Shown: positions 16,006-64,000 of the stretch, one piece after another
Numbering within the stretch: position 1 is the first letter of the stretch
How the letters are laid out: the number at the start of each line of letters is the position of its first letter
Source: Selaginella tamariscina
Lineage: Eukaryota; Streptophyta; Lycopodiopsida; Selaginellales; Selaginellaceae
DNA length: 64,000 nucleotides
Direction: 5' to 3'
Assembly: GCA_003024785.1 (NCBI GenBank)
Contig: PUQB01000058.1
Coordinates: forward strand, 1-64,000
Notes under the pieces: model-generated
The model's input: only the letters and a program-made list of their open reading frames with translations
The model's database searches: none
What the model was told of the DNA's origin: nothing
Made by a program: the position numbers and the translations under genes

Positions 16006-16007
16006 GT

Positions 16008-22186: not shown

Positions 22187-22199
22187 CAGTTACTATCAA
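22187..22199 (-). promoter_or_regulatory. Primer binding site of copy B, self-priming type
   Basis: Minus strand TTGATAGTAACTG, two bases inside the 5' LTR, perfectly complementary to the predicted transcript start at 22493-22481. Same arrangement as copy A. Confidence 0.78.
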
Positions 22200-22201
22200 A
22201 C

Positions 22202-22830: not shown

Positions 22831-22835
22831 GCTGC

Positions 22836-23391
22836 CTTTGAAGCCTGTTTTGGAGATCCTGATAAGTACCGTTCTGCATGCACGAAGTTACGGAAGCTCA
22901 CTCAAGGATCCCGACCAGCTTCCGTCTATGCATCCGAATTTCAGCAACTTTGCACGAACATTCCATGGAACGAGACTGCATTGATCGAACACTTCCGTTT
23001 TGGGTTGAGGGACGACGTGAAGGACCTTCTCCTTACATTACCGGATGCCCAAACATTAGCGGAGATCATGCAACAAGCTGTTCGTTGCGACAACCGTTTG
23101 TTCGAGCGTCGTCAGGAAAGATCCCGTCAACAATTCCTGTAAACCAATCCTGCAGCTGTGGTACGTGTTCCTGCACCACCTTCTGGAGTAGTTCCTATGG
23201 AGGTTGAGAAATCCAAGCGTGGCTCTCTTTCCGCTGCGGAGAAGCAACGTCGTCGTAGTGAGAACCTGTGCTTGTATTGTGGTGGAGCAGGACACAAGGT
23301 GGCAGATTGTCCTATTAAAGCCAGGAACTTCAAGACGCGTGAAGTTGAAGCTGAAGTTCAGTCGGAAAACTCCAATGTCCACTTCGTCTAG
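22836..23391 (+). pseudogene. Gag of copy A, second part
   Basis: Resumes gag after copy B: FEACFGDPDKYRSACTKL, LRDDVKDLLLTLPDAQTL, then a TAA at 23140-23142 where copies B and C have CAA. The nucleocapsid LCLYCGGAGHKVADC lies at about 23269-23313. The normal gag stop TAG is at 23389-23391. Confidence 0.9.
23355..23391 (+). other. gag-pol overlap, candidate -1 frameshift site
   Basis: Gag (frame 0) ends at TAG 23389-23391. The pol frame is -1, open from just after a TGA at 23352-23354. Within the 37-nt overlap is G-GAA-AAC at 23364-23370 in gag frame. The arrangement is identical in copy B (21160-21154, TAG 21135-21133) and copy C (54297-54303, TAG 54322-54324). PEG10, a domesticated sushi relative, uses G-GGA-AAC. 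Slippage here is inference. Confidence 0.6.
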
Positions 23392-24062
23392 GAGCCGCGA
23401 AGTTGGACGTAGGTGCAGGCTCCATTGGTGCTGCTCATACCATCCCATCACTTAAGTTTCCTGTATACATTCATCTTAATAATCGAGAGCTCATGGAGTT
23501 TGCCTTGTTAGACACTGGTGCAAATGCATGCTTCATGGATGATACGTTTGCAACTCAACATGGCATTTCGGTGGTGAAGTTGAAGCGTGCAGTTCCTGTA
23601 GAGGTGGCCAATGGGCGTTTAATTGCTTCTGGCGCGGTTACCCATGCTACCGAACCTCTCTCCTGCAGGTATGGCACATTCAACTGTTCAATTTCCTTCA
23701 ACTTGATCAAGACTCGGTCGACTCCCATCATTTTGGGCATGCCATGGTTTGTTGTTTCAAATCCGCAGATCGACTGGAGGTCTAGGACGCTCACGTTTTC
23801 CTCTCCAACAGCTAGGATCAATCCTGTACCTTCCTGTGTGCAGGATACATCCTTAATATCTGAGGCAGTACAAGCTACAGGATTGACCGTGCCTGTTCCT
23901 GTACCAGTGTTGAAGACTCCTCACAACAGGATTCACCTCATATCAGTTCCTCAGCACATCTGCAGGCTCTCTCCACTCCTGTAAGTTTGCGGTGTCCTGT
24001 ACAGGGTTCCTCCAATCCTGTATCAGTGTCGAAGGTTCCTCCTCAATAGGATCCACCTCCTG
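23392..24062 (+). pseudogene. Aspartic protease of copy A
   Basis: Reads LDVGAGSIGAAHTI, ALLDTGANACFMDD (D-T-G at 23511-23519) and PIILGMPWFVV, then the proline-rich spacer. A deletion near 23925 (CTCACAACAGG) shifts the spacer frame. Confidence 0.88.
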
Positions 24063-24274
24063 TTGATTCGTCAGCACATTCGCAGGCTTCTTCCACTCTT
24101 GCGCAACCACGGATTCCTGTACAGGATTCTTCCAATCCTGTACACTCATCACCCACACAGGTTTTTTCCAATCCTGCTTCTTTCTGTTACCCTGCTTCTG
24201 TTCCATCCCCCAAGATCCTTCCTCTTTTTCAGTCACAGCTCCCTCCTTCTCCTCTCCGAGTTCTTACTACTACC

Positions 24275-25076
24275 ATGCATGAACTCGCCATTGATCCTGC
24301 TCCCTTCCACCTTTTTGCCTTTCAAGTAACTCCTACGTCCTCTTCTACCTTTCCTGTATCCGACTCCCCTGTTTTTTCTCCTTCTCCTTCTCCTTCTCCT
24401 CCTTCTTCCCTACCATTCAAGTACCACGACTTTAAGGACGTTTTTGACAAGCACAAGGCTGCAGTTCTTCCTGTTCACAAGTCCTACGACTGTCCTATTA
24501 ATCTTGCGGAAGGAAAGACTCCACCATTCGGACCGATTTATGCATTATCACCCACAGAGTTGGAGGTTCTTCGTCAGTACATTGAGGACAACTTGGCATC
24601 CGGCTTCATTCGTCACTCAAAGTCCCCTGCAGGAGCTCCTATCTTCTTTGTCAAGAAGAAGGATGGGAGTTTACGTTTGGTTGTGGACTACAGGGGTTTG
24701 AATCAAGTCACCATTCGGAATCGGTACCCGTTGCCATTGATCCCAGAACTTCTCGATCGGCTGCGAGGAGCAAAGGTGTTCACGAAGATCGACTTACAAG
24801 GAGCCTAAAACTTGTACGGATTCGTCCCGGCGATGAGTGGAAGACTGCCTTTCGTACAAGGTATGGACATTTTGAGTACACGGTAATGCCTTTCGGCCTT
24901 ACCAATGCCCCAGCTGTGTTCCAACACATGGTGAACGACATTTTCTGTGACTTCTTGGACCAGTTTGTGGTGATCTACCTCGACGACATCTTGATTTTCT
25001 CCAGGGACCAGGCGGCACATGACAAGCATGTAGACTAGTTTTAGAGCGGCTTCGCGAGCATGGCCTGTACGCGAAG
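24275..25076 (+). pseudogene. Reverse transcriptase of copy A
   Basis: 24275-24808 is open from the spacer through [67 protein letters not shown] and FTKIDLQGA, then TAA. The catalytic Y-L-D-D lies at 24976-24987. A 2-bp deletion near 25032 breaks the frame again. Catalytic residues are intact; the protein is not. Confidence 0.9.
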
Positions 25077-25664
25077 TTGGAGAAGTGTTTTTTCGATAGG
25101 GATTCGGTGGAGTTCTTGGGCTACATCGTCTCTCCTGCTGGCGTTTCCATGGACATGCACAAGGTGAAGACCATCGTGGAGTGGGAGAGGCCCAAGTCGG
25201 TACGAGATGTACAATGTTTCCTTGGCTTTGCAAACTTCTACAGGCGGTTCATACAGGACTTCTCCAAGCGTGTACTTCCACTCATAGAACTCACCAAGCG
25301 CACAGGACTTTTCTCTTGGTCCGACAAGGCGGAACACACGTTCACAACACTCAAGGACCTTTTCACGACAGCTCCGATTTTAGCACATCCTGACCCTTCT
25401 CATCCTTTCTTCATTGAAGCAGATGCCTCGGATTTTGCAGTAGGATCCGTGCTATCGTAAGTTGGAGAGGACAAGTTGCTTCATCCTGTAGCTTTTCACT
25501 CTCGTAAGTTCCTGTCGGCGGAGATCAACTACGAGATTCATGACAAGGAACTCAAGGCCATTGTGGATTCGTTTGAGGAGTGGCGGCATTTCCTGGAAGG
25601 TGCTGCACATCCTGTACAAGTTCTTACGGATCACAAGAACCTGGAGTACTTTCAAACGGCTTGA
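25077..25664 (+). pseudogene. RNase H region of copy A
   Basis: Reads [51 protein letters not shown], a TAA at 25459-25461 where B and C have CAA, then [19 protein letters not shown] and [16 protein letters not shown], then TGA at 25662-25664, shared with copy B and explained by CGA to TGA as copy C shows. Confidence 0.9.
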
Positions 25665-25763
25665 GTCCTCAGTTGGTGACAGGCTAGGTGGGCAGAGTTC
25701 CTATCACGTTTTGACTTCGTCATCGTCTACAGGCCTGGATTTCGGAATGGCAAGGCGGACGCA

Positions 25764-27016
25764 TTGTCTAGGCGCTCTTACCTTGCACCAAGCCCGGGCG
25801 ATCCTGCATTTGACAGTCAAAGGCAAGTGTTGTTGGGTCCTGATCGTTTTCGGCTTGCGGCATTGCAGGTTCATCAGGCTCCAGCAAATTCAACACTCCT
25901 ACAGGACGTTCGTTCGCAGTTGGCTACAGACGATTTGGCAAAGAATGTGTTCTCACACATTCATCCTGACGTTGCAAGTTCCTCTTCCTCCAGTTCCCGT
26001 CCAGACTACAACCTGTTCACCATACAGGATGGACTCCTGTACGTTCCTGTTGGTATTTCCAGGACTCGCGTGGTACAGGATTGTCATGATACCCCGGCTA
26101 CAGGACATTTTGGTGTGGCCAAGATAGTGGAGTTGGTGACTCGCAACTATTGGTGGCCGGGTTGCGAGGTTTTGTGGAGAGGTTTGTACGGAGTTGTGAT
26201 ACTTGTAGCAGGTCAAAGATGCCTCATCATGCACCTTCTGGTCTTCTTCGTCCTCTTCCTGTTCCGTCTGCTCCTTGGAGATCCATTTCTATGGATTTCC
26301 TCACAGATCTTCCTCCTTCTCGTGGATTTGATGCAGTTCTTGTGGTTGTTGACCGTTTCACCAAGCAGGCTCATTTCCTACCCTGCAACAAGACAGCTAC
26401 AGGTCAGACAACTGCCGAGTTGGTGATCCGCGAGGTGTTCCGACATCATGGTCTTCCTAAGAGCATTGTTTCCGATCGAGGTCCACAATTCATGTCCAAG
26501 TTTTGGCGAGAGCTTCTTCGGAGTCTACAGGTCAAAGCGGATCTTTATTCAGGATATCACCCACAAACCGATGGGCAGTCCGAACGCACAATTCAGACCT
26601 TAGAACAGTATCTTTGTTGCTTCATTAGTTACCAGCAGGACAACTGGTTGGACCTCCTTCCAATGGCGGAGTTTGCCTACAAAACTCCATCCACGCATCT
26701 ACAGGACAGACACCCTTCTTTGCTCTTACAGGCCACCATCCACGTTTTGACTTTGCTCCTCCCGCTTCTCCTTCTTCCGCTCCTGCAGTACAAGATCGTC
26801 TTCAGCATCTTCGGCAGGTACAGGATGATCTCCAGGTTCATCTTCAACAGGCACAGGAATGATACAAGCATCATGCTGATGCTCACCGTCAACCGGCACC
26901 TGCATACAAGATTGGTGATCTCGTGTGGCTTCTTCGTCGACACATTCGCACCAACAGGCCTTCTTCTAAGTTGGATTTTCAACGATTGGGCCCTTATAGG
27001 ATCGTGGCGGAGGTAA
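25764..27016 (+). pseudogene. Integrase of copy A
   Basis: The HHCC zinc region is split by a frame change at about 26160 (ATGHFGVAKIVEL, then CDTCSRSK). The core keeps all three acidic residues: [24 protein letters not shown] and [12 protein letters not shown]. Downstream the frame changes again near 26685 before the GPY module. Confidence 0.9.
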
Positions 27017-27363
27017 ATCCTGTAGCTTTCCGACTCGAGTTACCATCCACGGTGAAACTTCATCCTGTGTTTCACACCTCTTTGTTGGAGCCGTATCATC
27101 CTTCTTCTCTTCCCGGTTGTGTTTCTTCTCCTCCCCCTCCTGTGGTCATTGACACAGAACCTGAGTACGAAGTCGCAGCCATCCTTGACTCTCGTCTTCA
27201 TCGTCACCAACTCCAATACTTAGTGGATTGGAAAGGGTACCTACCTACTGATCGCACTTGGGAACCTGCATCCAACTTACTCCATGCTTCTTCCAAGGTT
27301 GCTGCCTTCCATCGGCATTATCCTGCTAAACCAGGTCCCAAGACTCGTGGAACTCGTCTTTAG
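26923..27363 (+). pseudogene. GPY module and chromodomain of copy A
   Basis: The frame reads RLGPYRIV (residues 21-28), [16 protein letters not shown], then the chromodomain at 27163-27327 ([38 protein letters not shown]) and ends at TAG 27361-27363, directly before the polypurine tract. Aromatic cage positions Y, W and Y are present. This carboxy terminus is intact over its whole length. Confidence 0.92.
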
Positions 27364-27374
27364 GGAGGAGGTGC
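27362..27374 (+). promoter_or_regulatory. Polypurine tract of copy A
   Basis: AGGGAGGAGGTGC abuts the 3' LTR and overlaps the pol stop codon. Confidence 0.8.
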
Positions 27375-28075
27375 TGTCACGACCCGATACAGAATACAGG
27401 ATTCCGGATACAGGACATGGGTTGCAGGACTTTCCTACAGGATTCCGGATACAGGATATGGGTTGCAGGACTTTCCTACAGGATTCCGGATACATGATAT
27501 GGGTTGCAGGATTTTCCTACAGGATATTCCTACTAGGATTCCGGACACAGGATTCGGTTGCAGGATATTCCTACAGGATATTCCTACAGGATATGCCACA
27601 GGATATGCCTAGAGGATAAGGGACATGTGGACCCATCTTAGCCTCTGCATGCATGCAATCACTTTTGCATGCATACAACCACTTTTGCATGCATGCCTAG
27701 ATTAGCTCTTGGAGTTGTGAGCATAAAAGCTCCGACCTAATTGTTGTACAATCAGTTACTATCAACACCAGTCTTACTACGATCAATTTCGTCTTGTCTT
27801 GTTTCTTGTTCTCGTCTTGTTGTCTTGTTCTCGTCTTGTTTCCTGTCCTGTTCCTGTCTTGCTCCTGTTCCTGTCCTGCTCCTGGATCCTATCCTACTCC
27901 GGGATCCTGTCCTGTTCCTGTCTCGCTCCCGGATCCTATCCTGATCCTGTCTTGCTCTTAGATCCGTCCTGTTCCTATTTCCAGTTCCTGTCCTGCTCTC
28001 GGTCCTGTTCCTGAGTCAGGCCTTCATGTCCTTGGAATCCTGTTCTCTTCCTGGTTCCTGGATCGTGGCTTGACA
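27375..28075 (+). repeat. 3' LTR of copy A (701 bp)
   Basis: TGTCACGACCCG to GGCTTGACA; longer than the 5' LTR by extra CAGGATTCCGGATA-type units and a duplicated TTGTTCTCGTCTTG segment. Three RY repeats, one with a substitution. Confidence 0.93.
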
Positions 28076-30000: not shown

Positions 30001-30108
30001 AATAAGTTGTGTCGCCTACAGATTCACCAATGCCTTTTTATGTTCCTCCAGATCCGAGCCCATCTACTAGAGAACCCTAACCAACTTACACCCTTCCGAG
30101 AGGAGGGA

Positions 30109-30273
30109 TGATATAAGATCCATGTGTACGGCTGCATGTGCACATACTATTATTAGCATAGTGGATTTTGATAGCCGTCGGATTGGATTCAATCTGGACC
30201 ACTCGCTCTTGTATATAAGTTAAGGTTTCTGAACTAATGAATATACACGTTTCTATATTTTTGAGCTTTCACA
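30109..30273 (+). repeat. 3' LTR of outer gypsy element
   Basis: TGATATAAGATCC to GAGCTTTCACA, preceded by GAGAGGAGGGA, a polypurine tract. Similar throughout to 12722-12885 with scattered substitutions. Confidence 0.88.
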
Positions 30274-30710
30274 CTGTGTATATATAATTGTATGAATAAA
30301 TACTTTTACTTTATCCAACAAATACTTCATGGACTTGGTTATTTCATGTGTGATTATTTGCTTGGTATTAACATAGAAAACATAATATTTATTTAATATT
30401 AACGACTGTATATGTATACAATAAGAACATGTAAAATTAAATAATTAATAAGTCTATTTGCATGAAGTGGAAAGGATGAGCATAATTAAAGTTTTTTTTA
30501 CTCTTTATAAGTAATGTTCTTATAACACACCTTTTCAAAGTCACAAGGCTGCTTAGGTGATTAATTAATTATTAATTTTTAATTAAATAAAAGCAAGTTA
30601 GTCTTGCGTTTTGTTTTCTCTTTACACATAAGGTAGTTACTATATACATTGTACATATAATATACATACCTATATGTTTATTAATACTAATCCATACGAA
30701 TGTACAATAT
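30274..30710. other. AT-rich non-coding DNA
   Basis: No gene or recognisable element seen. Confidence 0.5.
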
Positions 30711-31537
30711 ACATCTTATATATTTATAACATTTATATTGCCTTATTAATAACTTTGAGTTCCTAACAATTGTAGAAAATAACGAATTTATATATTGATA
30801 TTAAAATAAATTAATAAGATGTATTTGTTTCGCTTTTTATGTAAAATAAAAAAATTTTATATTTTTTATTTAATTAGATATTTATATACAAATTAGAAAG
30901 GTACTTACAAATTTATTTTCTCATACACGGCATCAAGTGTGTGTACATGTGACAATGAGAGCGTGTTAAAATCTATAAACCATAATATATACTAAATTGC
31001 AAATAGTAATGTAAAATATATACTTAATGTGAAAAACAACATTGAGAGCATGTTAAAGTTTATTAAACCATAATATATACTAAATTAGAATGGTATCATA
31101 AAATATATATTTAGCGTGAAAAAGAACATTGAGGAAATAAAAGATATATTAACGATTCTTTATTATATTATTTCTGAACGTTCTTTTTACATTACCTCAT
31201 GTTACCATTTGTAATTTAGTATATATATAGTTTAACGAACTTTAACTCTCTCTCACACCTACACTACGTGTAGTGTTTGGGAAAATAAACCTGTAACATG
31301 TGTTTTTCTAGCTTGTATATAATTAAAATATAAAAAATATTTAAATAAAAATAATATAACTCATTTTTTAATTTTTTTTATATATAAAAAAACAAGACAA
31401 ATATGTATTATTAAATCCATCTTAAACATCAATATATAAATTCATACTTAAAAATTTACAACTACTATACAATGTTAAAAAACTCAAAGTTATTAACAAA
31501 AATTATATAAATGTTATAAATATATAACATGTAAAAC
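30711..31537. repeat. Long fold-back element, arms about 400 bp
   Basis: The left arm (from ACATCTTATATATTTATAAC at 30711) recurs as reverse complement ending near 31537. Matching blocks in order: ATATATTTATAACATTTATAT, TTAATAACTTTGAGTT, GAATTTATATATTGAT, TTTATTTTC.CA.ACAC, GTTAAA.T..A..AACCATAATATA. The left arm also holds a tandem duplication at about 30955-31110. The loop is near 31120-31170. No coding content. It looks like a fold-back or MITE-type DNA transposon. Confidence 0.75.
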
Positions 31538-31938
31538 TAAAAATCTATATTGTTGTTTTTAAAGTTAGTGTCATCGTTTGAAATAATATATGAACCTCGA
31601 TCGTATAAAATATTTTCATAGATGTGTATAGATAAGTATACTAACATATATATATAATAATATATATATATATCAATGTTATACATATATAAATTAACTA
31701 CATTCTGTGTGTAAAATTAAACTTAATTAAAAAATCAACAATTGATTATCTGACTCATGTTGTAACTTTGGAAGGCATGCTCCATCAGAATACAAAATAG
31801 ACTAAGCAATAATAAGTGTGTGGGATGGGAGGGATGAAATAATTAAAGTTTTTAATATTTATATTTTTACTCTTTACATGTGACGAGAACATAATAATAT
31901 ATATACACTTTATATATGTATGTATATATATATATATA

Positions 31939-31979
<41 letters not shown>

Positions 31980-32100
31980 CCATCGTGTTGCTATATTAAG
32001 CATTAGACCGAATCTCATGCATGGGCTTAACTATTTCAACCCACTTATTATCCTTAACTTCATGAGTTTTTTTTAAGTTAGACCTTTAAAACAGACCAAG
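31538..32100. other. AT-rich DNA with TA microsatellites
   Basis: TA-rich tracts at 31650-31675 and 31921-31977. A minus-strand frame across the second tract encodes only IY repeats and is not a gene. Confidence 0.6.
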
Positions 32101-49590: not shown

Positions 49591-50217
49591 TGTCAAGCCA
49601 CGATCCAGGAACCAGGAAGAGAACAGGATTCCAAGGACAGGAAAGCTTGACTTAGGAACAGGACCGAGAGCAGGACAGGAAACAGGAATAGGAACAGGAC
49701 GATTCTAGGAGCAAGACAGGATCAGGATAGGATCCGGGAGCAAGACAGGAAAGCGCAGGACAAGATCCAGGAACAAGACAGAAGCAGGACAGGATCCAGG
49801 AGCATGACAGGATCCAAGAGCAGGACAGGAAACAGGAGCGAGCCAGGAACAGGACAGGAAACAAGACAAGAACAAGACAAGACGAGATTGATCGTAGTAA
49901 GACTGGTGTTGATAGTAACTGATTGTACAACAATTAGGTCGGAGCTTTTATGCTCACAACTCCAAGAGCTAATCTAGACATGAGTGCTAAAAGTGGTTGC
50001 ATGCATGCAAAAGTGATTGCATGCATGCAGAGGCTAAGATGAGTCCACATGTCCCTTATCCCTAGGCATATCCTGTGGCATATCCTGTAGGAATATCCTG
50101 TAGAAATATCCTGCAACCGAATCCTGTGTCCGGAATCCTGGTAGGAATATCCTGTAGGAAAGTCCTGCAACCCATGTCCTTTATTCGGAATCCTGTATTC
50201 TGTATTGGGTCGTGACA
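49591..50217 (-). repeat. 3' LTR of left arm of copy C (627 bp)
   Basis: TG...CA ends. Two intact RY repeats plus one altered block (ACATGAGTGCTAAAAGTGG), the same variant as in the right-arm LTR. Confidence 0.92.
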
Positions 50218-50470
50218 GCACCTCCTCCCTAAAGACGAGTTCCATGAGTCTTGGGACCTGGTTTAGCAGGATAATGCCGATGGAAGGCAGCAACCTTGAA
50301 AGAAGCATGGAGTAAGTTGGATGTAAGTTCCAAGTGCGATCAGTAGGCAGGTACCCTTTCCAATCCACCAAGTATTGGAGTTGGTGACGATGAAGACGAG
50401 AGTCAAGGATGGCTACAACTTCGTACTCAGGTTCAGTGTCAATGACCACAAGAGGGGAGGAGAGAAACAC
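50218..50470 (-). pseudogene. Polypurine tract and chromodomain, left arm of copy C
   Basis: Minus-strand AGGGAGGAGGTGC abuts the LTR. The frame from 50470 reads [33 protein letters not shown], then a one-base deletion changes frame. Confidence 0.86.
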
Positions 50471-51798
50471 GACCGGGAAGAGAAGAAGGATGATACGGCT
50501 CCAACAAAGAGGTGTGAAACACAGGATGAAGTTTCACCGTGGATGGTAACTCGAATCGGAAAGTTATAGGATTTACCTCCGCCACAATTATATAAGGGCC
50601 CAATCGTTGAAAATCCAACTTAGAAGAAGGCCTGTTGGTGCGAATGTGTCGACGAAGAAGCCATACGAGATCACCAATCTTGTATGCAGGTGCCGGCTGA
50701 AGGTGAGCATCAGCATGATGCTTGTATCGTTCCTGTGCCTGTTAAAGATGAACCTGGAGATCATCCTGTAACTGCCGAAGATGCTGAAGACGATCCTGTA
50801 CTGCAGGAGCGGAAGAAGGAGAAGCGGGAGGAGCAAAGTCAAAACGTGGATGGTGGCCTGTAAGAGCAAAGAAAGGTGTCTGTCCTGTAGATGCGTGGAT
50901 GGAGTTGTTGTAGGCAAACTCCGCCATTGGAAGATACTATTCTAAGGTCTGAATTGTGCGTTCGGACTGCCCATCGGTTTGTGGGTGATATCCTGAAGAA
51001 AGATCCGCTTTGACCTGTAGACTCCGAAGAAGCTCTCGCCAAAACTTGGACATGAATTGTGGACCTCGATCGGAAACAATGCTCTCAGGAAGACCATGAT
51101 GTCGGAACACATCGCGGATCACCAACTCGGCAGTTGTCTGACCTGTAACTGTCTTGTTGCAGGGTAGGAAATGAGCATGCTTGGTGAAAGGTCAACCACC
51201 ACAAGAACTGCATCAAATCCACGAGAAGGAGGAAGATCTGTGAGGAAATCCATAGAAATGGATCTCCAAGGAGCAGACGGAACAGGAAGAGGTCGAGAAG
51301 ACCAGAGGGTGCATGATGAGGCATCTTTGACCTGCTACAAGTGTCACAACTCCGTACAAACCTCTCCACAAAACCTCGCAACCCAGGCCACCAATAGTTG
51401 CGAGTCACCAACTCCACTGTCTTGGCCACACCAAAATGTCATGTAGCCGGGGTATCATGACAATCCTGTACCACACGAGTCCTGGAAATACCAGCAGGAA
51501 CGTACATGAACCTTCCTGGTACAGGAGTCCATCCTGTAGGTGAACAGGTTGTAGTCTGGACGGGAACTGGAGGAAGAGGAACTTGCAGCGTCAGGATGAA
51601 TGTGTGAGGACACATTCTTTGCCAAGTCGTCTGTAGCCAACTGCAAACGGATGTCCTGTAGGAGTGTTGAATTTGCTGGAGCCTGATGAACCTGCAGTGC
51701 CCAAGCCGGAAACGATCAGGACCCAACAACACTTGCCTTTGACAGTCAAATGCAGGAGGATCGCCCGGGCTTGGTGCAAGGTAAGAGCGCTTAGACAA
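50471..51798 (-). pseudogene. Integrase, left arm of copy C
   Basis: Fragments in three frames: LTRNYWWPGLRGFVERFVRS-type zinc region and CDTCSRSK (51085-51429), SMDFLTDLP region after an indel, [18 protein letters not shown] and [12 protein letters not shown] (50937-51125), and the RLGPYR region. A segment of about 60 bp around the [13 protein letters not shown] codons (near 50937) is deleted compared with copies A and B. Confidence 0.84.
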
Positions 51799-53502
51799 TG
51801 CGTCCGCCTTGCCATTCCGAAAGCCGGGCCTATAAACGATGACGAAGTCAAAACGTGATAGGAACTCTGCCCACCTAGCCTGTCGCCGACTGAGGACCAG
51901 CCGTTTGAAAGTACTTCAGGTTCTTGTGATCCGTAAGAACTTGTACAATGTGCCGCACCTTCCAGGAAATGCCGCCACCTCAAACAAATCCACAATGGCC
52001 TTGAGTTCCTTGTCATGAATCTCGTAGTTGATCTCCGCCGACAGGAACTTACGAGAGTGGAAAGCTACAGGATGAAGCAACTTGTCCCTCCAACTTGCGA
52101 TAGCACGGATCCTACTGCAAAATCTGAGGCATCTGCTTCAATGAAGAAAGGATGAGAGGGTCAGGATGTGCTAAAATCGGAGCTGTCGTGAAAACGTCCT
52201 TGAGTGTTGTGAACGCGTGTTCCGCCTGTCGGACCAAGAAAAAATCCTGTGCGCTTGGTGAGTTCTGTGAGTGGAAGTACACGCTTGGAGAAGTCCTGTA
52301 TGAACCGCTTGTAGAAGTTTGCAAAGCCAAGGAAACATTGTACATCTCGTACCGACTTGGGCCTCTCCCACTCCACGATGGTCTTCACCTTGTGCATGTC
52401 CATGGAAACGCCAGCAGGAGAGACGATGTAGCCCAAGAACTCCACCGAATCTTTATCGAAAAAACACTTCTCCAACTTCGCGTACAGGCCATGCTCGCGA
52501 AGCCGCTCTAAAACTAGCCGTACATGCTTGTTCATGTGCCGCCTGGTCCTTGGAAGAAAATCAAGATGTCGTCAGGTAGATCACACAAACTGGTCCAAGA
52601 AGTCACGGAAAATGTCGTTCACCATGTGTTGGAACACAGCTGGGGCATTGGTAAGGCCGAAAGGCATTACCGTGTACTCAAAATGTCCATACCTTGTACG
52701 AAAGGCAGTCTTCCACTCATCGCCGGGACAAATCCGTACAAGGTTGTAGGCTCCTCGTAAGTCGATCTTTGTGAACACCTTTGCTCTCGCAGCCGATCGA
52801 GAAGTTCGGGATCAATGGCAACGGGTACCGATTCCGAATGGTGACTTGATTCAAACCCCTGTAGTCCACAACCAAACGTAAACCTCATCCTTCTTCTTGA
52901 CAAAGAAGATAGGAACTCCTGCAGGGGACTTTGAGTGACGAATGAAGCCGGATGCCAAGTTGTCCTCGATGTACTGACGAAGAACCTCCAACTCTGTGGG
53001 TGACAATGCATAAATCGGTCCGAATGGTGGAGTCTTTCCTTCCGCAAGATCAATAGGACAGTCGTAGGACCTGTGAACAGGAAGAACTGCAGCCTTGTGC
53101 TTGTCAAAAACGTCCTTAAAGTCGTGGTACTTGGATGGTAGGGAAGAAGGAGGAGAAGGAGAAGGAGAAGGAGAAAAACAGGGGAGTCGGATACAGGAAA
53201 GGTAGAAGAGGATGTAGGAGTTACTTGAAAGGCAAAAAGGTGGAAGGGAGCAGGATCAGTGGTGAGTTCATGCATGGTAGTGGTAAGAACTCAGAGAGGA
53301 GAAGGAGGGAGCTGTGACTGAAAAAAGAGGAAGGATCTTGGGGGGTGGAATAGAAGCAGGGTAACAGAACGAAGGCAGGATTGGAAAAAACCTGTGGGTG
53401 TTGATGAGTGTACAGGATTGGAAGAATCCTGTACAGGAGTCCGTGATTGCGCAGGAGTGGGAAAAGCCTGCGAATGTGCTGACGAATCAACAGGAGGTGG
53501 AC
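51799..53502 (-). pseudogene. RNase H, RT and spacer, left arm of copy C
   Basis: Contains [19 protein letters not shown] and [16 protein letters not shown] (52161-52535), [20 protein letters not shown] (52581-52778), and the spacer running into RT (52667-53275, [11 protein letters not shown]). At least eight frame changes by one or two bases. Ends abruptly at 53502 within the spacer. Confidence 0.83.
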
Positions 53503-54324
53503 CCCTCGGTGGTTCCCTCTTCATCAAATTTTTCTTCGAAGCCGAAGGTTAGCATGCTAGAGAAGTTCAGTGGCAATCGTGCCGATTTCCAAGGTTTCCT
53601 GAATCAGATCCGGCTCTTGATCCGTATGCAACCACGGCGCTACTCGACTGATGCTCAAAAGGTGGGTCTTTTGGCATCCTTACTAAGTGGATCTCCACGG
53701 GCTTGGGTTGCCCCCTTGCTGGAGCGTGACGACCCATTGATGGAAGACTTTGAAGGTTTCGTGGCTGCCTTTGAAGCCTGTTTTGGAGATCCTGATAAGT
53801 ACCGTTCTGCATGCACGAAGTTACGGAAGCTCACTCAAGGATCCCGACCAGCTTCCGTCTATGCATCCGAATTTCAGCAACTTTGCACGAACATTCCATG
53901 GGACGAGACTGCATTGATCGAACACTTCCGTTTTGGGTTGAGGGATGACGTGAAGGACCTTCTCCTTACGTTACCGGATGCCCAAACATTAGCGGAGATC
54001 ATGCAACAAGCTGTTCGTTGCGACAACCGTTTGTTCGAGCGTCGTCAGGAAAGATCCCGTCAGCAGTTCCTGCAAACCAATCCTGCAGCTGTGGTACATG
54101 TTCCTGCACCACCTTCTGGAGTAGTTCCTATGGAGGTTGAGAAATCCAAGCGTGGCTCTCTTTCCGCTGCTGAGAAGCAACGTCGTCGCAGTGAGAACCT
54201 GTGCTTGTATTGTGGTGGAGCAGGACACAAGGTGGCAGATTGTCCTATTAAAGCCAGGAACTTCAAGACGCGTGAAGTTGAAGCTGAAGTTCAGTCGGAA
54301 AACTCCAATGTCCACTTCGTCTAG
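53503..54324 (+). pseudogene. Gag, right arm of copy C
   Basis: Begins mid-gag at SVVPSSSNFS and is open to the conserved TAG: KFSGNRADFQGFLNQI, LLSGSPRAWVAPL, FEACFGDPDKYRSACTKL, RFGLRDDVKDLLLTLPD, LCLYCGGAGHKVADC. The longest undamaged gag stretch in the window. In frame upstream it is fused by chance to inverted-arm sequence from 53398. Confidence 0.9.
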
Positions 54325-55260
54325 GAGCCGCGAAGTTGGACGTAGGTGCAGGCTCCATTGGTGCTGCTCATACCATCCCATCACTTAAGTTTCCTGTACA
54401 CATTCATCTTAATAATCGAGAGCTCATGGAGTTTGCCTTGTTAGACACTGGTGCAAATGCATGCTTCATGGATGACACGTTTGCAACTCAACATGGCATT
54501 TCGGTGGTGAAGTTGAAGCGTGCAGTTCCTGTAGAGGTGGCCGATGGGCGTCTGATTGCTTCTGGCGCAGTTACCCATGCTACCGAACCTCTCTCCTGCA
54601 GTATGGCACATTCAACTGTTCAATTTCCTTCAACTTGATCAAGACTCGGTCGACTCCCATCATTTTGGGCATGCCATGGTTCGTTGTTGCAAATCCGCAG
54701 ATCGACTGGAGGTCTAGGACGCTCACGTTTTCCTCTCCGACAGCTAGGATCAATCCTGTACCTTCCTGTGTGCAGGATACATCCTTAGTATCTGAGGCAG
54801 TACAAGCTACAGGATTGACCGTGCCTGTTCCTGTACCAGTGTTGAAGACTCCTCCTCGACAGGATTCACCTCATGTCAGTTCCTCAGCACATCCGCAGGC
54901 TCTCTCCACTCCTGTAAGTTTGCGGTGTCCTGTACAGGGTTCTTCCAATCCTGTATCAGTGTCGAAGGTTCCTCCTCAACAGGATCCACCTCCTGTTGAT
55001 TCGTCAGCACATTCGCAGGCTTTTCCCACTCCTGCGCAACCACGGACTCCTGTACAGGATTCTTCCAATCCTGTACACTCATCAACACCACACAGGTTTT
55101 TCCAATCCTGCCTCTTTCTGTTACCCTGCTTCTGTTCCACCCCCCAAGATCCTTCCTCTTTTTCAGTCACAGCTCCCTCCTTCTCCTCTCCGAGTTCTTA
55201 CCACTACCATGCATGAACTCGCCACTGATCCTGCTCCTTTCCACCTTTTGCCTTTCAAGT
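54300..55260 (+). pseudogene. Protease and proline-rich spacer, right arm of copy C
   Basis: LDVGAGSIGAAHTI, LLDTGANACFMDD, then a one-base deletion near 54600 (CTGCAGTATGG) and IILGMPWFVVANPQIDW in the next frame. The spacer shows the densest TCCTGTA/TACAGGAT motifs (54760-55080). Confidence 0.87.
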
Positions 55261-55896
55261 AACTCCTACGTCCTCTTCTACCTTTCCTGTATCCGACTCT
55301 CCTTTTTTCAATCTCCTTCTCCTACTCCTTCTCCTTCTCCTCCTTCTTCCCTACCATCCAAGTATCACGCCTTTAAGGACGTTTTTGACAAGCACAAGGC
55401 TGCAGTTCTTCCTGTTCACAGGTCCTACGACTGTCCTATTGATCTTGCGGAAGGAAAGACTCCACCATTCGGACCGATTTATGCATTGTCACCCACAGAG
55501 TTGGAGGTTCTTCGTCAGTACATCGAGGACAACTTGGCATCCGGCTTCATTCGTCACTCAAAGTCCCTTCTGTGGAGGTTTGGTTGTGGACTACAGGGTT
55601 TGAATCAAGTCACCATTCGGAATCGGTACCCGTTGCCATTGATCCCGGAACTTCTCGATCGGCTGCGAGGAGCAAAGGTGTTCACGAAGATCGACTTACG
55701 AGGGGCCTACAACCTTGTACGGATTCGTCCCGGCGATGAGTGGAAGACTGCCTTTCGTACAAGGTATGGACATTTTGAGTACACGGTAATGCCTTTCGGC
55801 CTTACCAATGCCCCAGCCGTGTTCCAACACATGGTGAACGACATCTTTCGTGACTTCTTGGACCAGTTTGTGGTGATCTACCTCGACGACATTTGA
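55261..55896 (+). pseudogene. Reverse transcriptase, right arm of copy C
   Basis: [20 protein letters not shown], then a deletion that removes the [12 protein letters not shown] block ([14 protein letters not shown] instead), [40 protein letters not shown] and the catalytic Y-L-D-D at 55879-55890, followed by a deletion and stop. Missing the K-K-D-G block, it could not work. Confidence 0.88.
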
Positions 55897-57113
55897 TTTT
55901 CTCCAAGGACCAGGCGGCACATGACAAGCATGTACGACTAGTTCTAGAGCGGCTTCGCGAGCATGGCCTGTACGCGAAGTTGGAGAAGTGTTTTTTCGAT
56001 AGGGATTCGGTGGAGTTCTTGGGCTACATCGTCTCTCCTGCTGGCGTTTCCATGGACATGCACAAGGTGAAGACCATCGTGGAGGGAGAGGCCCAAGTCG
56101 GTACGAGATGTACAATGTTTCCTTGGCTTTGCAAACTTCTACAGGCGGTTCATACAGGACTTCTCCAAGCGTGTACTTCCACTCACGGAACTCACCAAGC
56201 GCACAGGTTTTCTCTTGGTCCGACAAGGCGGAACACGCGTTCACAACACTCAAGGACGTTCACGACAGCTCCGATTTTAGCACATCCTGACCCTTCTCAT
56301 CCTTTCTTCATTGAAGCAGATGCCTCGGATTTTGCAGTAGGATCCGTCCTATCGCAAGTTGGAGAGGACAAGTTGCTTCATCCTGTAGCTTTTCACTCTC
56401 GTAAGTTCCTGTCGGCGGAGATCAATTACGAGATTCATGACAAGGAACTCAAGGCCATTGTGGATTCGTTTGAGGAGTGGCGGCATTTCCTGGAAGGTGC
56501 TGCACATCCTGTACAAGTTCTTACGGATCACAAGAACCTGGAGTACTTTCAAACGGCTCGAGTTCTCAGTCGGCGACAGGCTAGGTGGGCGGAGTTCCTA
56601 TCACGTTTTGACTTCGTCATCGTCTACAGGCCCGGTTTTCGGAATGGCAAGGCGGACGCATTGTCTAGGCGCTCTTACCTTGCACCAAGCCCGGGCGATC
56701 CTGCATTTGACTGTCAAAGGCAAGTGTTGTTGGGTCCTGATCGATTCCGGCTTGCGGCACTGCAGGTTCATCAGGCTCCAGCAAATTCAACACTCCTACA
56801 GGACGTCCGTTCGCAGTTGGCTACAGACGACTTGGCAAAGAATGTGTTCTCACACATTCATCCTGACGTTGCAAGTTCCTCTTCCTCCAGTTCCCGTCAG
56901 ACTACAACCTGTTCACCATACAGGATGGACTCCTGTACCGGGAAGGTCTCCTGTACGTTCCTGTTGGTATTTCCAGGACTCGTGTGGTACAGGATTGTCA
57001 TGATACCCGGCTACAGGACATTTTGGTGTGGCCAAGACAGTGGAGTTGGTGACTCGCAACTATTGGTGGCCTGGGTTGCGAGGTTTTGTGGAGAGGTTTG
57101 TACGGAGTTGTGA
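55893..57113 (+). pseudogene. RNase H region to integrase zinc finger, right arm of copy C
   Basis: A 406-codon frame holding [74 protein letters not shown] and [17 protein letters not shown]. Two indels bracket the fingers-connection region. At the RNase H position where A and B have TGA this copy has CGA. Confidence 0.88.
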
Positions 57114-57960
57114 CACTTGTAGCAGGTCGAAGATGCCTCATCATGCACCCTCTGGTCTTCTTCGTCCTCTTCCTGTTCCTTCTGCCTTGGAGATCCATTT
57201 CTATGGATTTCCTCACAGATCTTCCTCCTTCTCGTGGATTGATGCAGTTCTTGTGGTGGTTGACCGTTTCACCAAGCAGGCTCATTTCCTACCCTGCAAC
57301 AAGACAGCTACAGGTCAGACAACTGCCGAGTTGGTGATCCGAGGTGTTCCGACATCATGGTCTTCCTGAGAGCATTGTTTCCGATCGAGGTCCACAATTC
57401 ATGTCCAAGTTTTGGCGAGAGCTTCTTCGGAGTCTACAGGTTAAAGCGGATCTTTCTTCAGGATATCACCCACAAACGATGGGCAGTCCGAACGCACAAT
57501 TCAGACCTTGGAACAGTATCTTCGTTGCTTCATCAGTTACCAGCAGGACAACTGGTTGGACCTTCTTCCAATGGCGGAGTTTGCCTACAACAACTCCGTT
57601 CACGCATCTACAGGACAGACACCTTTCTTTGCTCTTACAGGCCACCATCCACGTTTTGACTTTGCTCCTCCGCTTCTCCTTCTTCCGCTCCTGCAGTACA
57701 GGATCGTCTTCAGCATCTTCGGCAGGTACAGGATGATCTCCAGGTTCATCTTCAGCAGGCACAGGAACGATACAAGCATCATGCTGATGCTCACCGTCAG
57801 CCGGCACCTGCATACAAGATTGGTGATCTCGTGTGGCTTCTTCGTCGACACATTCGCACCAACAGGCCTTCTTCTAAGTTGGATTTTCAACGATTGGGCC
57901 CTTACAGGATCGTGGGAGGTAAATCCTGTAGCTTTCCGACTCGAGTTACCATCCACGGTG
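57028..57960 (+). pseudogene. Integrase, right arm of copy C
   Basis: [19 protein letters not shown], then frame changes; [20 protein letters not shown] (57344 frame); [20 protein letters not shown] and [19 protein letters not shown] (57508 frame). The glutamate-bearing GQSE block is out of frame because of a one-base deletion at about 57478. Confidence 0.86.
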
Positions 57961-58045
57961 AAACTTCATCCTGTGTTTCACACCTCCTTGTTGGAGCCGT
58001 ATCATCCTTCTTCTCTTCCCGGTCGTTTCTTCTCCTCCCCCTCCT

Positions 58046-58263
58046 GTGGTCATTGACACTGAACCTGAGTACGAAGTTGCAGCCATCCTTGATTCTCGTC
58101 TTCATCGTCACCAACTCCAATACTTGGTGGATTGGAAAGGTATTTGCCTACTGATCGCACTTGGGAACCTGCATCCAACTTACTCCATGCTTCTTCCAAG
58201 GTTGCTGCCTTCCATCGGCATTATCCTGCTAAACCAGGTCCCAAGACTCGTGGAACTCGTCTT
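58046..58263 (+). pseudogene. Chromodomain, right arm of copy C
   Basis: [20 protein letters not shown] and VDWKG, then a 3-5 bp loss shifts the frame; the remaining text of [11 protein letters not shown] is in another frame. TAG just before the polypurine tract at 58265-58277. Confidence 0.87.
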
Positions 58264-58277
58264 TAGGGAGGAGGTGC

Positions 58278-58909
58278 TGTCACGACCCGATACAGAATAC
58301 AGGATTCCGGATACAGGATATGGGTTGCAGGACTTTCCTACAGGATTCCGGATACAGGATATGGTTGTAGGATTCCTACCAGGATTCCGGACACAGGATT
58401 CGGTTGCAGGATATTCCTACAGGATATGCCACAGGATATGCCTAGAGGATAAGGGACATGTGGACTCATCTTAGCCTCTGCATGCATGCATCACTTTTGC
58501 ATGCATGCAACCACTTTTAGCACTCATGCCTAGATTAGCTCTTGGAGTTGTGAGCATAAAAGCTCCGACCTAATTGTTGTACAATCAGTTACTATCAACA
58601 CCAGTCTTACTACGATCAATCTCGTCTTGTCTTGTTCTTGTCTTGTTCCTGTCCTGTTCCTGTCTCGCTCCTGTTTCCTGTCCTGCTCCTGGATCCTGTC
58701 CTGCTCCTGGATCCTGTCCTGCTTCTTGTTCCTGGATCTGTCCTGCGCTTTCCTGTCTTGCTCCCGGATCCTATCCTGATCCTGTCTTGCTCCTAGATCC
58801 GTCCTGTTCCTATTCCTAGTTCCTGTCCTGCTCTCGGTCCTGTTCCTGAGTCAAGCCTTCCTGTCCTTGGAATCCTGTTCTTTCCTGGTTCCTGGATCGT
58901 GGCTTGACA
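58278..58909 (+). repeat. 3' LTR of right arm of copy C (632 bp)
   Basis: TGTCACGACCCG to GGCTTGACA. Two intact RY repeats plus the altered CCACTTTTAGCACTCATGCC block shared with the left-arm LTR. Confidence 0.92.
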
Positions 58910-58925
58910 ACCTGGTTGATTCAAC

Positions 58926-60430
58926 TTGCAGCACTATAAGTTCATCAGGCTTCAGCAGATTCCACACTCCTACAGGACATCCATTTGCAGTTGGCTACAA
59001 CGACTGATAAGGAATGTGTTTTCACACATTAGTCCTGATCGCAAGTTCTTCTTCCTCCAGTTCCGTACAGACTACAAGTTGTTTGCTATACATGACAGAT
59101 CCTGTACCGGAAGGTCTCCTGTACATTCCTGTTGGTGTTTGTAGAACTCGTGTGGTACAAGATTGTCATGATACCCCGACTACATGACATTTTGGTGTGG
59201 CCAAACAGTTGAGTTGGTGATTCGTAACTATTGGTGGCCTGAGTTGCGAGGTTTTGTGGACAAGTTTGTACGCAGTTGTGACACCTGCAATAGGTCGAAG
59301 ATGCCTCGTCACGCGTCCTCTGGTCTTCTTCGTCTCTTCATGTTCTTCTACTCCTTAGAGATCCATTTCTATGGATTTTCACAAATTTTTCCTTTTCGTG
59401 GATTTGATGCAGTTCTTGTGGTGGTTGATTGTTTCACCAAACAGGTTCATTTTCTTACCATGTCACAAGACTGCTACAGGCCAAAACAACCGTTGAGTTA
59501 GTGATCCGCAAAGTATTCCGACACCTGGTCTTATTGAGAGCTTGTTTCTGATCGAGGCCCACAATTTATGTGCAAGTTTTGGCGAGAACTTCTCCGGAGT
59601 CTACAGGTTAAAGCGGACCTTTCTTCAGGATACCATCCACAAACTGATGGGAGTTAGAACACACGATTCAGACTTGAAGCAATATCTTCGCTGCTTCATC
59701 AGTTACCAATAGGACAACTGGTTGAACCTTCTTCTAATGGCAGTTTGCCTACAACAACTCCGTTCACACATCTATAGGCCAAAGACCTTTCTTTGCTCTT
59801 ACAGGCTACCATCCACGTTTTGACTTTGCTCTCCTACTTCTCCTTCTTCGCTCTTGCAATACAGAATCATCTCCAGCATCTTCGTTAGGTACATGAGATC
59901 TCCGGGTTCATCTTTAGCAGGCACAGGAACGGTACAAGCATCATGCTGATGCTCATCATCAACCAACACATGCATACAAGATTGGTGATCTCGTGTGGCT
60001 TCTTGGTCAGCATATTCGCACCAACAAGCCTTCTTCTAAGTTGGATTTTCAATGATGGGCCTTTACAGGATTGCGGCTGAGGTCAATCCTGTAGCTTTCC
60101 GACTCGAGTTACCCTATGGTAAACTTCATCCTATGTTTCACACTTCTTTGTTGGAGCCATATCATCCTTCTTCTTTTCCTGGTCGTGCTTCTTCTCCTCC
60201 CCTCATGTGGTCATTGACGGTGAACCTGAGTATGAAGTTGCGCATCCTTGATTCTCGTCTTTATCGTCGTCAACTTCAATACTTGGTGGATTGAAAAGGT
60301 TTTTGCTTACCGATCGCACTTGGAACCTGCATCCAACTTACTCCATGCTTCTTCCAAAGTTGCTGCTTTCCATCGGCGTTATCTTACTAAATCAGGTCTT
60401 AAGACTCATGGACTTGTCCTTAAGGAGGAG
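58926..60430 (+). pseudogene. Integrase and chromodomain of copy D
   Basis: 59184-59501 reads ELVIRNYWWPELRGFVDKFV, RSCDTCNRSKMPRHASSGLL and [18 protein letters not shown]. Later fragments show [19 protein letters not shown] text in broken frames, then VNPVAFRLELPYGKLHPMFH and [17 protein letters not shown] (60052-60294) and [20 protein letters not shown] (60248-60571), the chromodomain end. Numerous indels. Confidence 0.82.
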
Positions 60431-60436
60431 GCTTGC

Positions 60437-60929
60437 TGCACGACCCGATACAGGATACAAGATATAGGATACGGGTTACAGAATATACCTACAGGATATT
60501 CTTACAGGATATACCTACAGAATATTCCTACAGAATATACCTACATGATATTCCACAGGATATGCCTATAGGATATACTTACAGGATATGCCTGCAGGAT
60601 ATTCCTACAGGATATGCCTATAGGATATACTACATGATATGCCTAGGGATAAGGGTCACTATCTTTAGCTCATGACCAGATTACTCATGACCAGATTAAC
60701 TTGGAGTTGTGAGTATAAAAGCTCCAACCTAATTGTTGTACAATCAATTATTATTAACCAGTCTTTCTACGATCAATCTTGTCTTGTCTTGTCTTGTTCT
60801 TGTCTTGTTTGCTCATTGCCTCTGCTCTTGTCTTGTTCATGGTTCCTAGTTCCTTGTTCTACTTCTAAGTCAAGCTTCCTTGTTCTTGGAATCTTACTCA
60901 CTTCCTTGTTCCTGGATCGTGACTTGACA
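60437..60929 (+). repeat. 3' LTR of copy D (about 493 bp)
   Basis: TGCACGACCCG to GACTTGACA. Its first part is expanded to about 12 units of (C/T)AGGATAT.CCTA type (60480-60645). RY repeats are absent. The TATA box TATAAAAGC is kept, but the transcript-start motif is altered to CAATTATTATTAA. Confidence 0.85.
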
Positions 60930-61693: not shown

Positions 61694-61927
61694 CACGAGA
61701 TTTGAGAATGCATTTCATACATGAGTTTATATACCAATATCAAATATATATATATATATATAAAGATATATACACTGTCGATAACATATTAATTTTTAGC
61801 CTTTGTGTTCCATACACCCGAGTTCAAGTTCTTTGGGTTCATTAGGATTCGACACACCAAGACCACATTGCACATCACTGAGGAGTGTTGCCATTTTGGA
61901 GGCTTGGGGCCCAGGAGGCCTGGGCTC

Positions 61928-61958
61928 GAATATTCTAGAATATTTTAGAATATTCTTC
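61928..61958. promoter_or_regulatory. Heat-shock-element-like array
   Basis: GAATATTC-TA-GAATATTT-TA-GAATATTC: alternating nGAAn and nTTCn units at exact 5-bp steps, six units, one imperfect. This is the textbook HSE layout, but the sequence is also a simple palindromic repeat, so function is inferred. It lies about 90 bp beyond the stop codon of the minus-strand gene. Confidence 0.45.
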
Positions 61959-62050
61959 TAGTCGGCAGTATTAGCCTCAGTTGGCAAAAAAAACTTTCTA
62001 GTAAAACTGTTGTATTTCTACCTTATTCTTTTTTATATTAGCTTAATTTA

Positions 62051-62367
62051 TTACTCAATACCATTAGCTAAAGTTTCTTCTTCATTCTTAAGTAAAGCTG
62101 CAGTTCTCGAACCACCAGCTAGGCTTGGACGTGGAGGTGTTTGAGTAGGTATTTCCTCTAGTTTAATGTTCTCTGCGAGCTTGTTTGTTGCCAACCTAGA
62201 GAGTTCCAAAACTCTTCTCGGTTCCTATAATATTCCTTCTGAGCTTGACGGCAGCTAACAACAATGATCCAATTCCGGAATCAATATCCCAGACTAGGTC
62301 GCCATGTCTACTAAGATGCTCGATCAAAAACTGCATGAGTCGAATACTCTTCGGTTGAATCATCATC
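62051..62367 (-). pseudogene. Copy 2 last exon: SAM-binding motif I
   Basis: Reads MMIQPKSIRLMQFLIEHLSR, HGDLVWDIDSGIGSLLLAAV, KLRRNIIGTE. This matches the N6_N4 methyltransferase carboxy-terminal block (KP..L...LI...S..GD.V.D...G.GS...AA..L.RN.IG.E) closely. D.DSGIGS at 62265-62288 stands for the D-P-F-x-G-x-G-T loop that binds S-adenosylmethionine. A frameshift follows, then RVLELSRLATNKLAENIKLE and a tail ending at TAA 62053-62051. Confidence 0.75.
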
Positions 62368-62576
62368 CTGCAAAAACTTCTATAGGATAAACAAAGTAAA
62401 GTACTTCCTTACCAAGCCTCCTGAAAACGGTCGGCGGTATCGACGAGGATCGTGTTCGTCAACGCCAGAGGTTTGGCCTCTTCGACTTCTTCTCAGAGCT
62501 TTGCAAGCCCAAGAGAACCAACAAGTTATCTTGCCACATAACCAAGTTAAACTTGAACTTGAATAGCTAGCTTACC

Positions 62577-63428
62577 TTAATTTTGTCACGATATCCCCAG
62601 CCTTGTGCACGGTAGATGCTGTAAGTCCCTACAACCTCCAAGTTGATTACCAAGCCGCCTGAATCACCAAAATAGAAGGAGAACTCGCGAAGACGACCAT
62701 GAAATCGCTGCCAGTGCATTCCACTGAAACTGCAAGGCCTCCTCAAACTTCACCGGATCTAGCTGCACAATGTCCTTGTTGATGCTAGCACCTCCATATA
62801 AGCTCATTGGGCAAGTCGAGGATGATGAGGTTGAAGCCATATTCACCTACCACTTCCTGGAACACCGTTTGTGACTCAGCGTATGTAGTCTATCAACCTG
62901 TTGTCGAGCTTGGTGTACACCTCTATCTAGAAGCACTCGGCTCGAAGAAAGACCTGCTCATCTCCTCCATATCGCACACAGCCAGGTCGTAGGATCCACG
63001 GGATGCAGCCAGTGTCGGGATGAAGGTCATCAGGTCGTCCTTGATGTCCAAACCAGCTACAAGTGGCTGCACCTCATTGATTGTAAAGTCGATTGCCGGC
63101 GGAGGTGCTGTAGAAGAGCTTGGTCCCGCTCCCGATCCCTTTGCAGGTGTAGTTGTCTTCCGCACCGTCTTCTTCATCTTGCTCTTCTTGATAGCCTCTA
63201 CTTCGTCCGGCTCCCAAACAATCGCTGGTAGATCATTGCCATGCACGTCGAATAGTGAGCTCTCCCAAGCTGGTGGCTGTTGCGACGGACAGTCGAGCCA
63301 GAATGGAACATGCTCCCGTTCGAACGGTGTTAGAGCTCCTCTGCTCTTCGACCACATGTGAGGCTCGCTTGTATGATCTGTCCACAGCTTCATCATCTGA
63401 CGGTGCCATTTTCTTCGCCAGTATGAAC
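62577..63428 (-). pseudogene. Copy 2 exon: W-rich block and methyltransferase motif IV
   Basis: From the acceptor: WRRKWHRQMMKLWTDHTSEP, HMWSKSRGAL, EREHVPFWLDC, then a basic linker (KKSKMKKTVRKTTTPAKGSG), SYDLAVCDMEEMSRSFF, TAG. In the same frame further stops, then TVFQEVVGEYGFNLIILDLP-NE (motif IV at 62803-62820). After a frameshift: DIVQLDPVKFEEALQFQ; then SDFMVVFASSP in the first frame and VVGTYSIYRAQGWGY in a third. The same elements in the same order occur in copy 1 at 46488-47308. Confidence 0.66.
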
Positions 63429-63474
63429 CTGTAACACAAAGTTAGTCAGTAGCAATGCTGGAATGAAAGCTTAC

Positions 63475-64000
63475 CTCCATATCATCCGACGGCAGACTCC
63501 TCACGCTCCAGAAACTCATTCGGCTCCATCGAATAAGTGAACCGTATGCAGTCATGGAAGGGCTGAAAGACCAGGCACTTGCTCCGAGTTCGCATCTCGT
63601 CAAACCAGCTCATGAAGTCGACATCCGTTCCAACTTCTTCACCATCCTCTCGCAACCCCTTAAGGATCTGAATGGCTTCCTCGCGCACAGCCTTCCAATA
63701 TAAGTCCAAGGTGAACCACTTGATCCACTCTTTGTCCTGCATGCCTGGTAGCCCAAGTGTCTGTTGTTCTGCCTTGGATTCGAGACGAGTGAGCTTGTTC
63801 AAGTATCGGAGTCGCAGCATGTTTGAATCTTCGCCTTTGACATCGCGTACAGCTTCTCAATGCCCATCCAGCGACACTGCTTATGAGAGATGTTCGTCAC
63901 CTTCTGGAACCACTCCTCCCCCAACTGGGTCTATGATGAGAGGAACTTGTGCATACGCTTGTCATGCTTCTTGTACACTAGCTGCTTCAGGTTCAGCTCA
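63475..64000 (-). pseudogene. Copy 2 exon: helical and linker region
   Basis: Reads LNLKQLVYKKHDKRMHKFLS, TQLGEEWFQKVTNI and WMGIEKLYAMSKAKIQ, then in the next frame LRYLNKLTRLESKAEQQ, DLYWKAVREEAIQILKGLRE, DVDFMSWFDEM and MEPNEFLEREESAV, then TGA before the donor at 63474. Pairs with MNKFLTIADPEVREDWFKVI, YILGKLVHIQERG, AVKELL and VDEFMAWYTKM of copy 1. Confidence 0.66.

Follow-up and report, generated by a model that had tools for sequence, protein, structure and literature searches.

The 64,000-nucleotide stretch of Selaginella tamariscina DNA analysed here (the window) ends in part of a multi-exon gene whose motifs an earlier note had likened to those of bacterial and phage N4-cytosine/N6-adenine DNA methyltransferases. 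Liverwort has an N4-cytosine methyltransferase. The locus raises the question whether the gene writes 4mC or 6mA in the genome of this plant, as the note had suggested, or serves something else.

The gene at the end of the window

Both motifs behind the comparison were found on the minus strand, in the claimed order of IV before I. The motif IV-like L-D-L-P-N-E sits at 62803-62820 in an exon of its own, upstream of a separate exon with the motif I block (GDLVWDIDSGIGS...AAVKLRRNIIGTE), which falls within the ORF at 62196-62408. The motif I ORF matched PF01555 with E=7e-8 and 33.1 bits, above the curated Pfam cut-off of 26.7, and the motif IV exon alone gave no Pfam match. PF01555 was the best match. 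We rejected a C5 or MT-A70 methyltransferase, as the note had done, on finding no such Pfam match; several general methyltransferase families reached only E 0.027 or weaker.

The gene (gene 2 below) is present in the window as its 3' part (62068-64000, minus strand). The 3' part of exon 3, belonging to the middle region (63475-64000), is followed on the same strand by the 46-nt GT-AG intron 3 (63429-63474) and by exon 4 (62576-63428), which encodes the linker and the N-terminal half of the methyltransferase domain, motif IV included. Then come the 45-nt intron 4 (62531-62575), whose acceptor is altered in this copy, exon 5 (62413-62530), the 45-nt intron 5 (62368-62412) and exon 6 (62068-62367) with the motif X/motif I half (PF01555 positions 165-212) and the tail. 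The three short introns reported before fit this layout and match introns 3-5 of the family B consensus (see below) in position and phase; that consensus has six exons, 1,015 codons and five introns of 51-60 nt, all GT-AG.

Exons do lie at the window end, but the span given earlier needs correction: the reading frame stops at 62068 and not at 62051, and the gene extends beyond the window to an ATG near C926:65258 (a calculated position). The window copy is broken, as had been seen, by frameshifts and by a changed motif I (62262-62288, minus strand) that differs from the family's. The attribution to a plant agrees with a single match to the LEAFY domain PF01698 in the genome (E=7.8e-38) and none in 14 prokaryote controls, a result that marks the genome as that of a streptophyte and most probably of a land plant.

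The transposon that carries gene 2

The window copy of gene 2 lies in a DNA transposon of 7,941 bp (C926:61883-69823; family A), whose ends and target-site duplication we located. Its 3' part occupies 61883-64000 of the window on the minus strand. One side of the 9-bp duplication, at 61874-61882, differs by one base from the other (C926:69824-69832), so that 8/9 duplicated bases match, and 7 match in the family A copy of C1293. Because of these imperfect duplications, the exact start of A is uncertain by a base or two. Four A copies were fetched, and C14 and C565 came without the far end, leaving the window copy and C1293. Family B has exact 9-bp duplications in C90, C147 and C726 (three of the four copies fetched with both ends); for C504 the 9-bp duplication was identified by visual reading and has one extra base next to it. 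The boundaries were sharp in the copies examined.

All gene 2 copies examined fall into these two families. Identity to the window element is 92-96% for the other A copies (94-95% for C14, C565 and C1293); in family B, three more copies match the C90 copy at 97-98% identity across roughly 8 kb. A 32-base motif I string of family B had 188 exact sites in the genome, and the motif I string of family A had 378 when up to three mismatches were allowed; control searches with the reversed patterns gave 0 for either. A PF01555 scan of the 300.7-Mb genome yielded 739 candidates, and all of the 150 that were scored passed; among the matches listed, all end at profile positions 217-220, the end of motif I. 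The methyltransferase-like gene is gene 2 of a two-gene DNA transposon of about 8 kb that is abundant in the S. tamariscina genome, and the near-identical family B copies point to a probable recent burst. We rejected a host 4mC gene because of this location in a repeated element. More generally, a 4mC/6mA writer for the host genome finds no support, since the gene sits in a high-copy transposon and its catalytic tetrad, DLPN, has no aromatic residue.

Two arrangements of copies were seen in passing. In C565:316001-336000 (L019, L013), a B and an A copy of gene 2 point the same way, separated by about 7 kb. Some 7.8 kb past the far end of the window element lies a 4.35-kb stretch that matches, at 98% identity, C14 DNA directly abutting a truncated A copy, which suggests that the shared stretch is another repeat.

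Gene 1, a putative transposase of 1,018 codons when spliced in the B consensus, lies on the opposite strand, and the two genes diverge around an interval of about 1.05-1.1 kb. Its label is based on context, the 9-bp duplications and a weak match to the SWIM zinc finger (E=0.017-0.026, below the cut-off); possible D, D, CxxH and E residues were picked out by eye only. Spliced gene 1 gave no match to the MULE transposase domain PF10551 and none above cut-off at family level; compared by hhalign with four PF10551-positive ORFs of the same genome, it scored Prob 0.2. The PF10551 profile does work in this genome, as a separate Mutator family (L034, G000) gave 16 matches of identical score (95 bits). 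Mutator-like (MULE) target duplications measure 8-11 bp, a range that the 9-bp duplications fit. Since PF10551 and hhalign were both negative, we dropped a firm Mutator assignment and regard the element as a DNA transposon with 9-bp duplications that is Mutator-like at most.

Domain, decay and selection of gene 2

The gene 2 product has about 1,000 residues (1,015) and a C-terminal, circularly permuted beta-class amino-methyltransferase domain. Its motif I or cofactor-binding half matched PF01555 with E=7.5e-10 in family B exon 6; PF01555 alone did not cover the catalytic (motif IV) half. A profile of the two families aligned with six phage and bacterial beta-class enzymes over 200 columns (hhalign Prob 97.6, E=2.9e-12; Prob 0.2 for an unrelated control alignment) and placed DLPN on their motif IV column. 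The beta-class kinship first read from the motifs is upheld by the Pfam match to the window ORF and by this alignment. Searched against the PDB, a two-sequence profile of the domain hit MboIIA, DpnA and CcrM best, via the motif X/I half (E=1.5e-4 to 4e-3). The best NCBIfam models, a corrinoid-protein methyltransferase (1.5e-6) and CcrM (1.1e-5), were both far under their cut-offs.

Both family consensus sequences retain the cofactor motif DIGSGTGSS. Motif IV reads D-L-P-N in both, with Asn in place of the aromatic residue that stacks on the base, and neither A nor B has the catalytic (D/S/N)PP(Y/F/W) pattern. The six compared enzymes carry DPPY (2), DPPF (2), DLPY and DILY and all keep the aromatic. 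The Leu at the second position is thus seen in nature, in the phage enzyme L041, whose DLPYGT differs from the DLPNGT of family B only in the aromatic; of the sequences compared, this element alone has Asn at that place. The gene thus resembles phage and bacterial beta-class enzymes (PF01555) in domain profile, motif order and motif I, and differs from them in the missing catalytic aromatic, the long N-terminal extension and the eukaryotic introns. With a tetrad lacking the aromatic, methyltransferase activity is doubtful, and we infer that catalysis by gene 2 is reduced or lost, cofactor binding being possible. The missing aromatic does not prove that activity is lost.

The N-terminal region carries R..NP.DL..L..S.K and CWDGNHRL, which we take to resemble ParB boxes. 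To this extent the ParB kinship proposed earlier has motifs in its favour, but the profile comparisons were negative. No ParB-like domain was matched in gene 2 by Pfam, searches with PHROGs, PDB sequences and phage tblastn were all negative or insignificant, and hhalign against four phage ParB-like proteins gave Prob 0.3. In view of these results a ParB-like DNA-binding domain may be present but is unproved. Searches of 5.8 billion proteins found no convincing full-length relative: one gave none at 1e-3, another gave two at E 1.3 and 2.1, and a further one gave nothing even at E 10. An IMG/VR scan with the methyltransferase alignment gave one relative among 78 pattern matches. AlphaFold returned no usable model for the exon 1 and exon 4 pieces (pLDDT 38.6 and 30.2).

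We compared 11 family B copies of gene 2 with the consensus, to which six of them had contributed. Over the exons they were 98.15-100% identical to it in substitutions. One copy, C571, had no frameshift or internal stop and is the intact relative that had been expected elsewhere in the genome; the other 10 had 2-6 frameshifting indels each, and single-base deletions made up 28 of 40. Coding indels were more numerous in B copies than the few substitutions would lead one to expect, which hints that they are partly residual long-read assembly errors. If so, more copies are probably intact than this count shows. Among A copies, most differences are C>T/G>A changes (47 of the 82 substitutions in the window copy); these exceed the reverse changes in 10/10 A copies, some of them with few changes (4 in L004). 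Such an excess is as expected under host 5mC, to which we would attribute it.

Between A and B, 867 of the 1,015 codons of gene 2 were aligned, with pS at 0.83 (saturated) and pN at 0.27, a value lowered somewhat by the removal of poorly aligned windows. By part, pN was 0.25 in the conserved N-terminal region, 0.24 in the middle and 0.264 in the methyltransferase region, compared with 0.224 in the transposase-like gene; the charged N-terminal tail was looser (0.50 over 72 codons). Since synonymous sites are saturated and yet amino-acid identity is about 59%, gene 2 is, on the codon evidence, under purifying selection about as strong as that on the transposase-like gene. Selection persisting between saturated families means that gene 2 has long been needed.

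Motif arrays and the role of gene 2

A noncoding motif common to A and B, TGCCGACTG, forms arrays, palindromic or inverted, in the interval separating the genes and also occurs near the ends. In an unbiased 8-mer comparison of the consensus sequences, CAGTCGGC/AGTCGGCA headed the 8-mers common to the noncoding DNA of both families, with 10 sites in A and 19 in B (Markov mean 0.03 and 0.02) and 0 in the coding DNA of either. Exact sites lie mostly in the central interval (8/10 in the A consensus, 18/19 in B). Single ones occur close to the 3' end in A and B alike, and close to the 5' end in A alone, B having variants there. In the B consensus a 20-bp palindrome, CCAGTCGGCATGCCGACTGG, is repeated in the intergenic interval; its core CAGTCGGCNNGCCGACTG was present in 4/4 B copies (9, 7, 7 and 10 occurrences), spaced mostly about 40 bp apart (35-50 within the array). 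The sites of family A form inverted pairs without a tight palindrome. Two subterminal GCCGAC-type sites, one of them decayed, lie at 61961-61986 (minus strand) of the window copy, and 3 GCCGACTG sites occur in the 61.8 kb of the window that the element does not cover.

Another motif found in both families, AATATTCT, has 9 sites in A and 9 in B, clustered at both ends; a subterminal cluster with GAA/TTC arrays is at 61929-61957. GCCGAC, contained in the central motif, is the sequence of the DRE/CRT core, and the AATATTCT-type GAA/TTC and GAATATTC repeats resemble heat-shock elements. The element may respond to stress. The survival of both motifs amid otherwise differing noncoding DNA suggests a protein that reads them. 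The gene 2 protein is our first candidate and the transposase the second, although for TGCCGACTG the transposase would be as good a one.

Genes of this kind are already known, since ParB-like/methyltransferase genes in algal transposons are in print. The accessible text of PMC12477816 describes a ParB-like/DNA methyltransferase accessory gene in the Ectocarpus transposon Sola1-1_Ec32 and cites green- and red-algal transposon proteins (Iyer 2011, Petroll 2025). Compared by that description, the two proteins are alike in size (1,104 residues there, 1,015 here, both about 1,000), in an N4/N6 methyltransferase domain and in being encoded opposite to the transposase of a DNA transposon. Unlike Sola1-1_Ec32, as far as it is described there, our element has a land-plant host, 9-bp duplications, DLPN and hundreds of copies, and a ParB domain that is unconfirmed. 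The bdelloid N4CMT carries SPPY and acts on transposons of its host, according to the portion of PMC8885841 available to us, whereas here a transposon itself holds the gene, with DLPN. Parallel cases, as far as their available text goes, are TET/JBP genes in fungal transposons (PMC12730594) and methyltransferases in virus-integrated mariners (PMC3627910).

The literature searched (titles and abstract openings, with subscription papers mostly outside) reported no transposon of a land plant carrying a ParB- or amino-methyltransferase gene. The bdelloid and liverwort enzymes and gene 2 have in common the eukaryotic use of a bacterial-type amino-methyltransferase domain. Our case adds a land-plant host, abundance in the genome, an altered catalytic motif and the arrays of sites. 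Such genes were noted in algal transposons without a known function; with many near-identical copies, a gene under selection and a short list of candidate sites, the role of an accessory protein becomes testable. DLPN predicts a non-writer and so separates self-methylation from DNA-binding or anti-silencing ideas. Our findings also call for caution, as methyltransferase-domain matches in plant genomes can be transposon genes and not evidence of host 4mC/6mA.

With somewhat less than even confidence, we favour the explanation that the element encodes, in gene 2, its own sequence-specific regulator. This protein would bind TGCCGACTG sites in the divergent promoter and termini of its own element and, once bound, would counteract host silencing or autoregulate expression. 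The methyltransferase fold would chiefly be a module that binds cofactor and DNA or mediates dimerisation, and not an efficient 4mC/6mA writer; METTL14, which carries a degenerate EPPL motif, offers a comparison. A more far-reaching version is doubtful: a land-plant transposon would have turned a phage-type methyltransferase into a catalytically degenerate, self-targeting anti-silencing factor acting on palindromic TGCCGACTG arrays, which permitted a genome-wide burst. If true, this anti-silencing pseudo-methyltransferase would resemble the VANC system while having evolved on an unrelated protein fold. VANC is the anti-silencing protein of a Vandal (MULE) element (PMC13317346, in the part available). 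Compared by the description given there, Arabidopsis VANDAL (Mutator) elements and ours share an extra gene in a plant DNA transposon and element-specific short noncoding motifs, and the same text mentions no methyltransferase fold for VANC.

Accessory proteins of plant DNA transposons provide the model for another role, in which gene 2 binds subterminal and central repeats and assembles the transposition complex, with no part in silencing. The TGCCGACTG sites near the termini and the retention of gene 2 alongside the transposase agree with this, but most exact sites are central and not terminal, and we consider it unlikely. It is likewise unlikely that gene 2 is an active amino-methyltransferase, writing 4mC or 6mA at the element's own sites despite DLPN. 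Homology over the whole domain, the retained motif I and the strong constraint on gene 2 would suit a writer, the second-position Leu has its precedent in the DLPYGT of L041, and for the Ectocarpus protein a 4mC/6mA product was predicted and self-modification suggested (PMC12477816, accessible text). In A and B, however, Asn replaces the aromatic that stacks on the flipped base, and changing SPPY to APPA, which replaces the Ser and Tyr, abolished the activity of bdelloid N4CMT (PMC8885841, in the part available).

The identity of the motifs (DRE/CRT core, heat-shock-like repeats) and the rank of AATATTCT as the next motif common to A and B would fit arrays of host stress-factor sites that switch the element on under stress while gene 2 does something else. 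Palindromic units about 40 bp apart suit a dimeric, element-encoded binder better, and AATATTCT clusters terminally, far from both start codons, which makes this account improbable. Mutator elements do capture host genes. That gene 2 is an ordinary host gene or a passively captured fragment is nevertheless very hard to credit, given the same gene in two synonymously saturated families with pN near that of the transposase and at least three introns at identical positions in A and B.

If the promoter is protected, less C>T decay would be expected in the central interval of old A copies. The raw C>T rate was higher there, at 0.0217, than in gene 2 (0.0078) or the transposase gene (0.0121); relative to changes at A/T sites, C>T was lower there, about 1.9 compared with 3.7 and 2.2, both central values coming from a poorly aligned interval. 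In the rest of the window, positions 15396-28000 and 49700-60650 look retrotransposon-like by eye, with tandem arrays of ATCCTGTAGGAATATCCTG-type units, and 8001-12000 and 30001-32000 are very AT-rich (GC 0.17-0.24) with tandem repeats of 78-87 bp.
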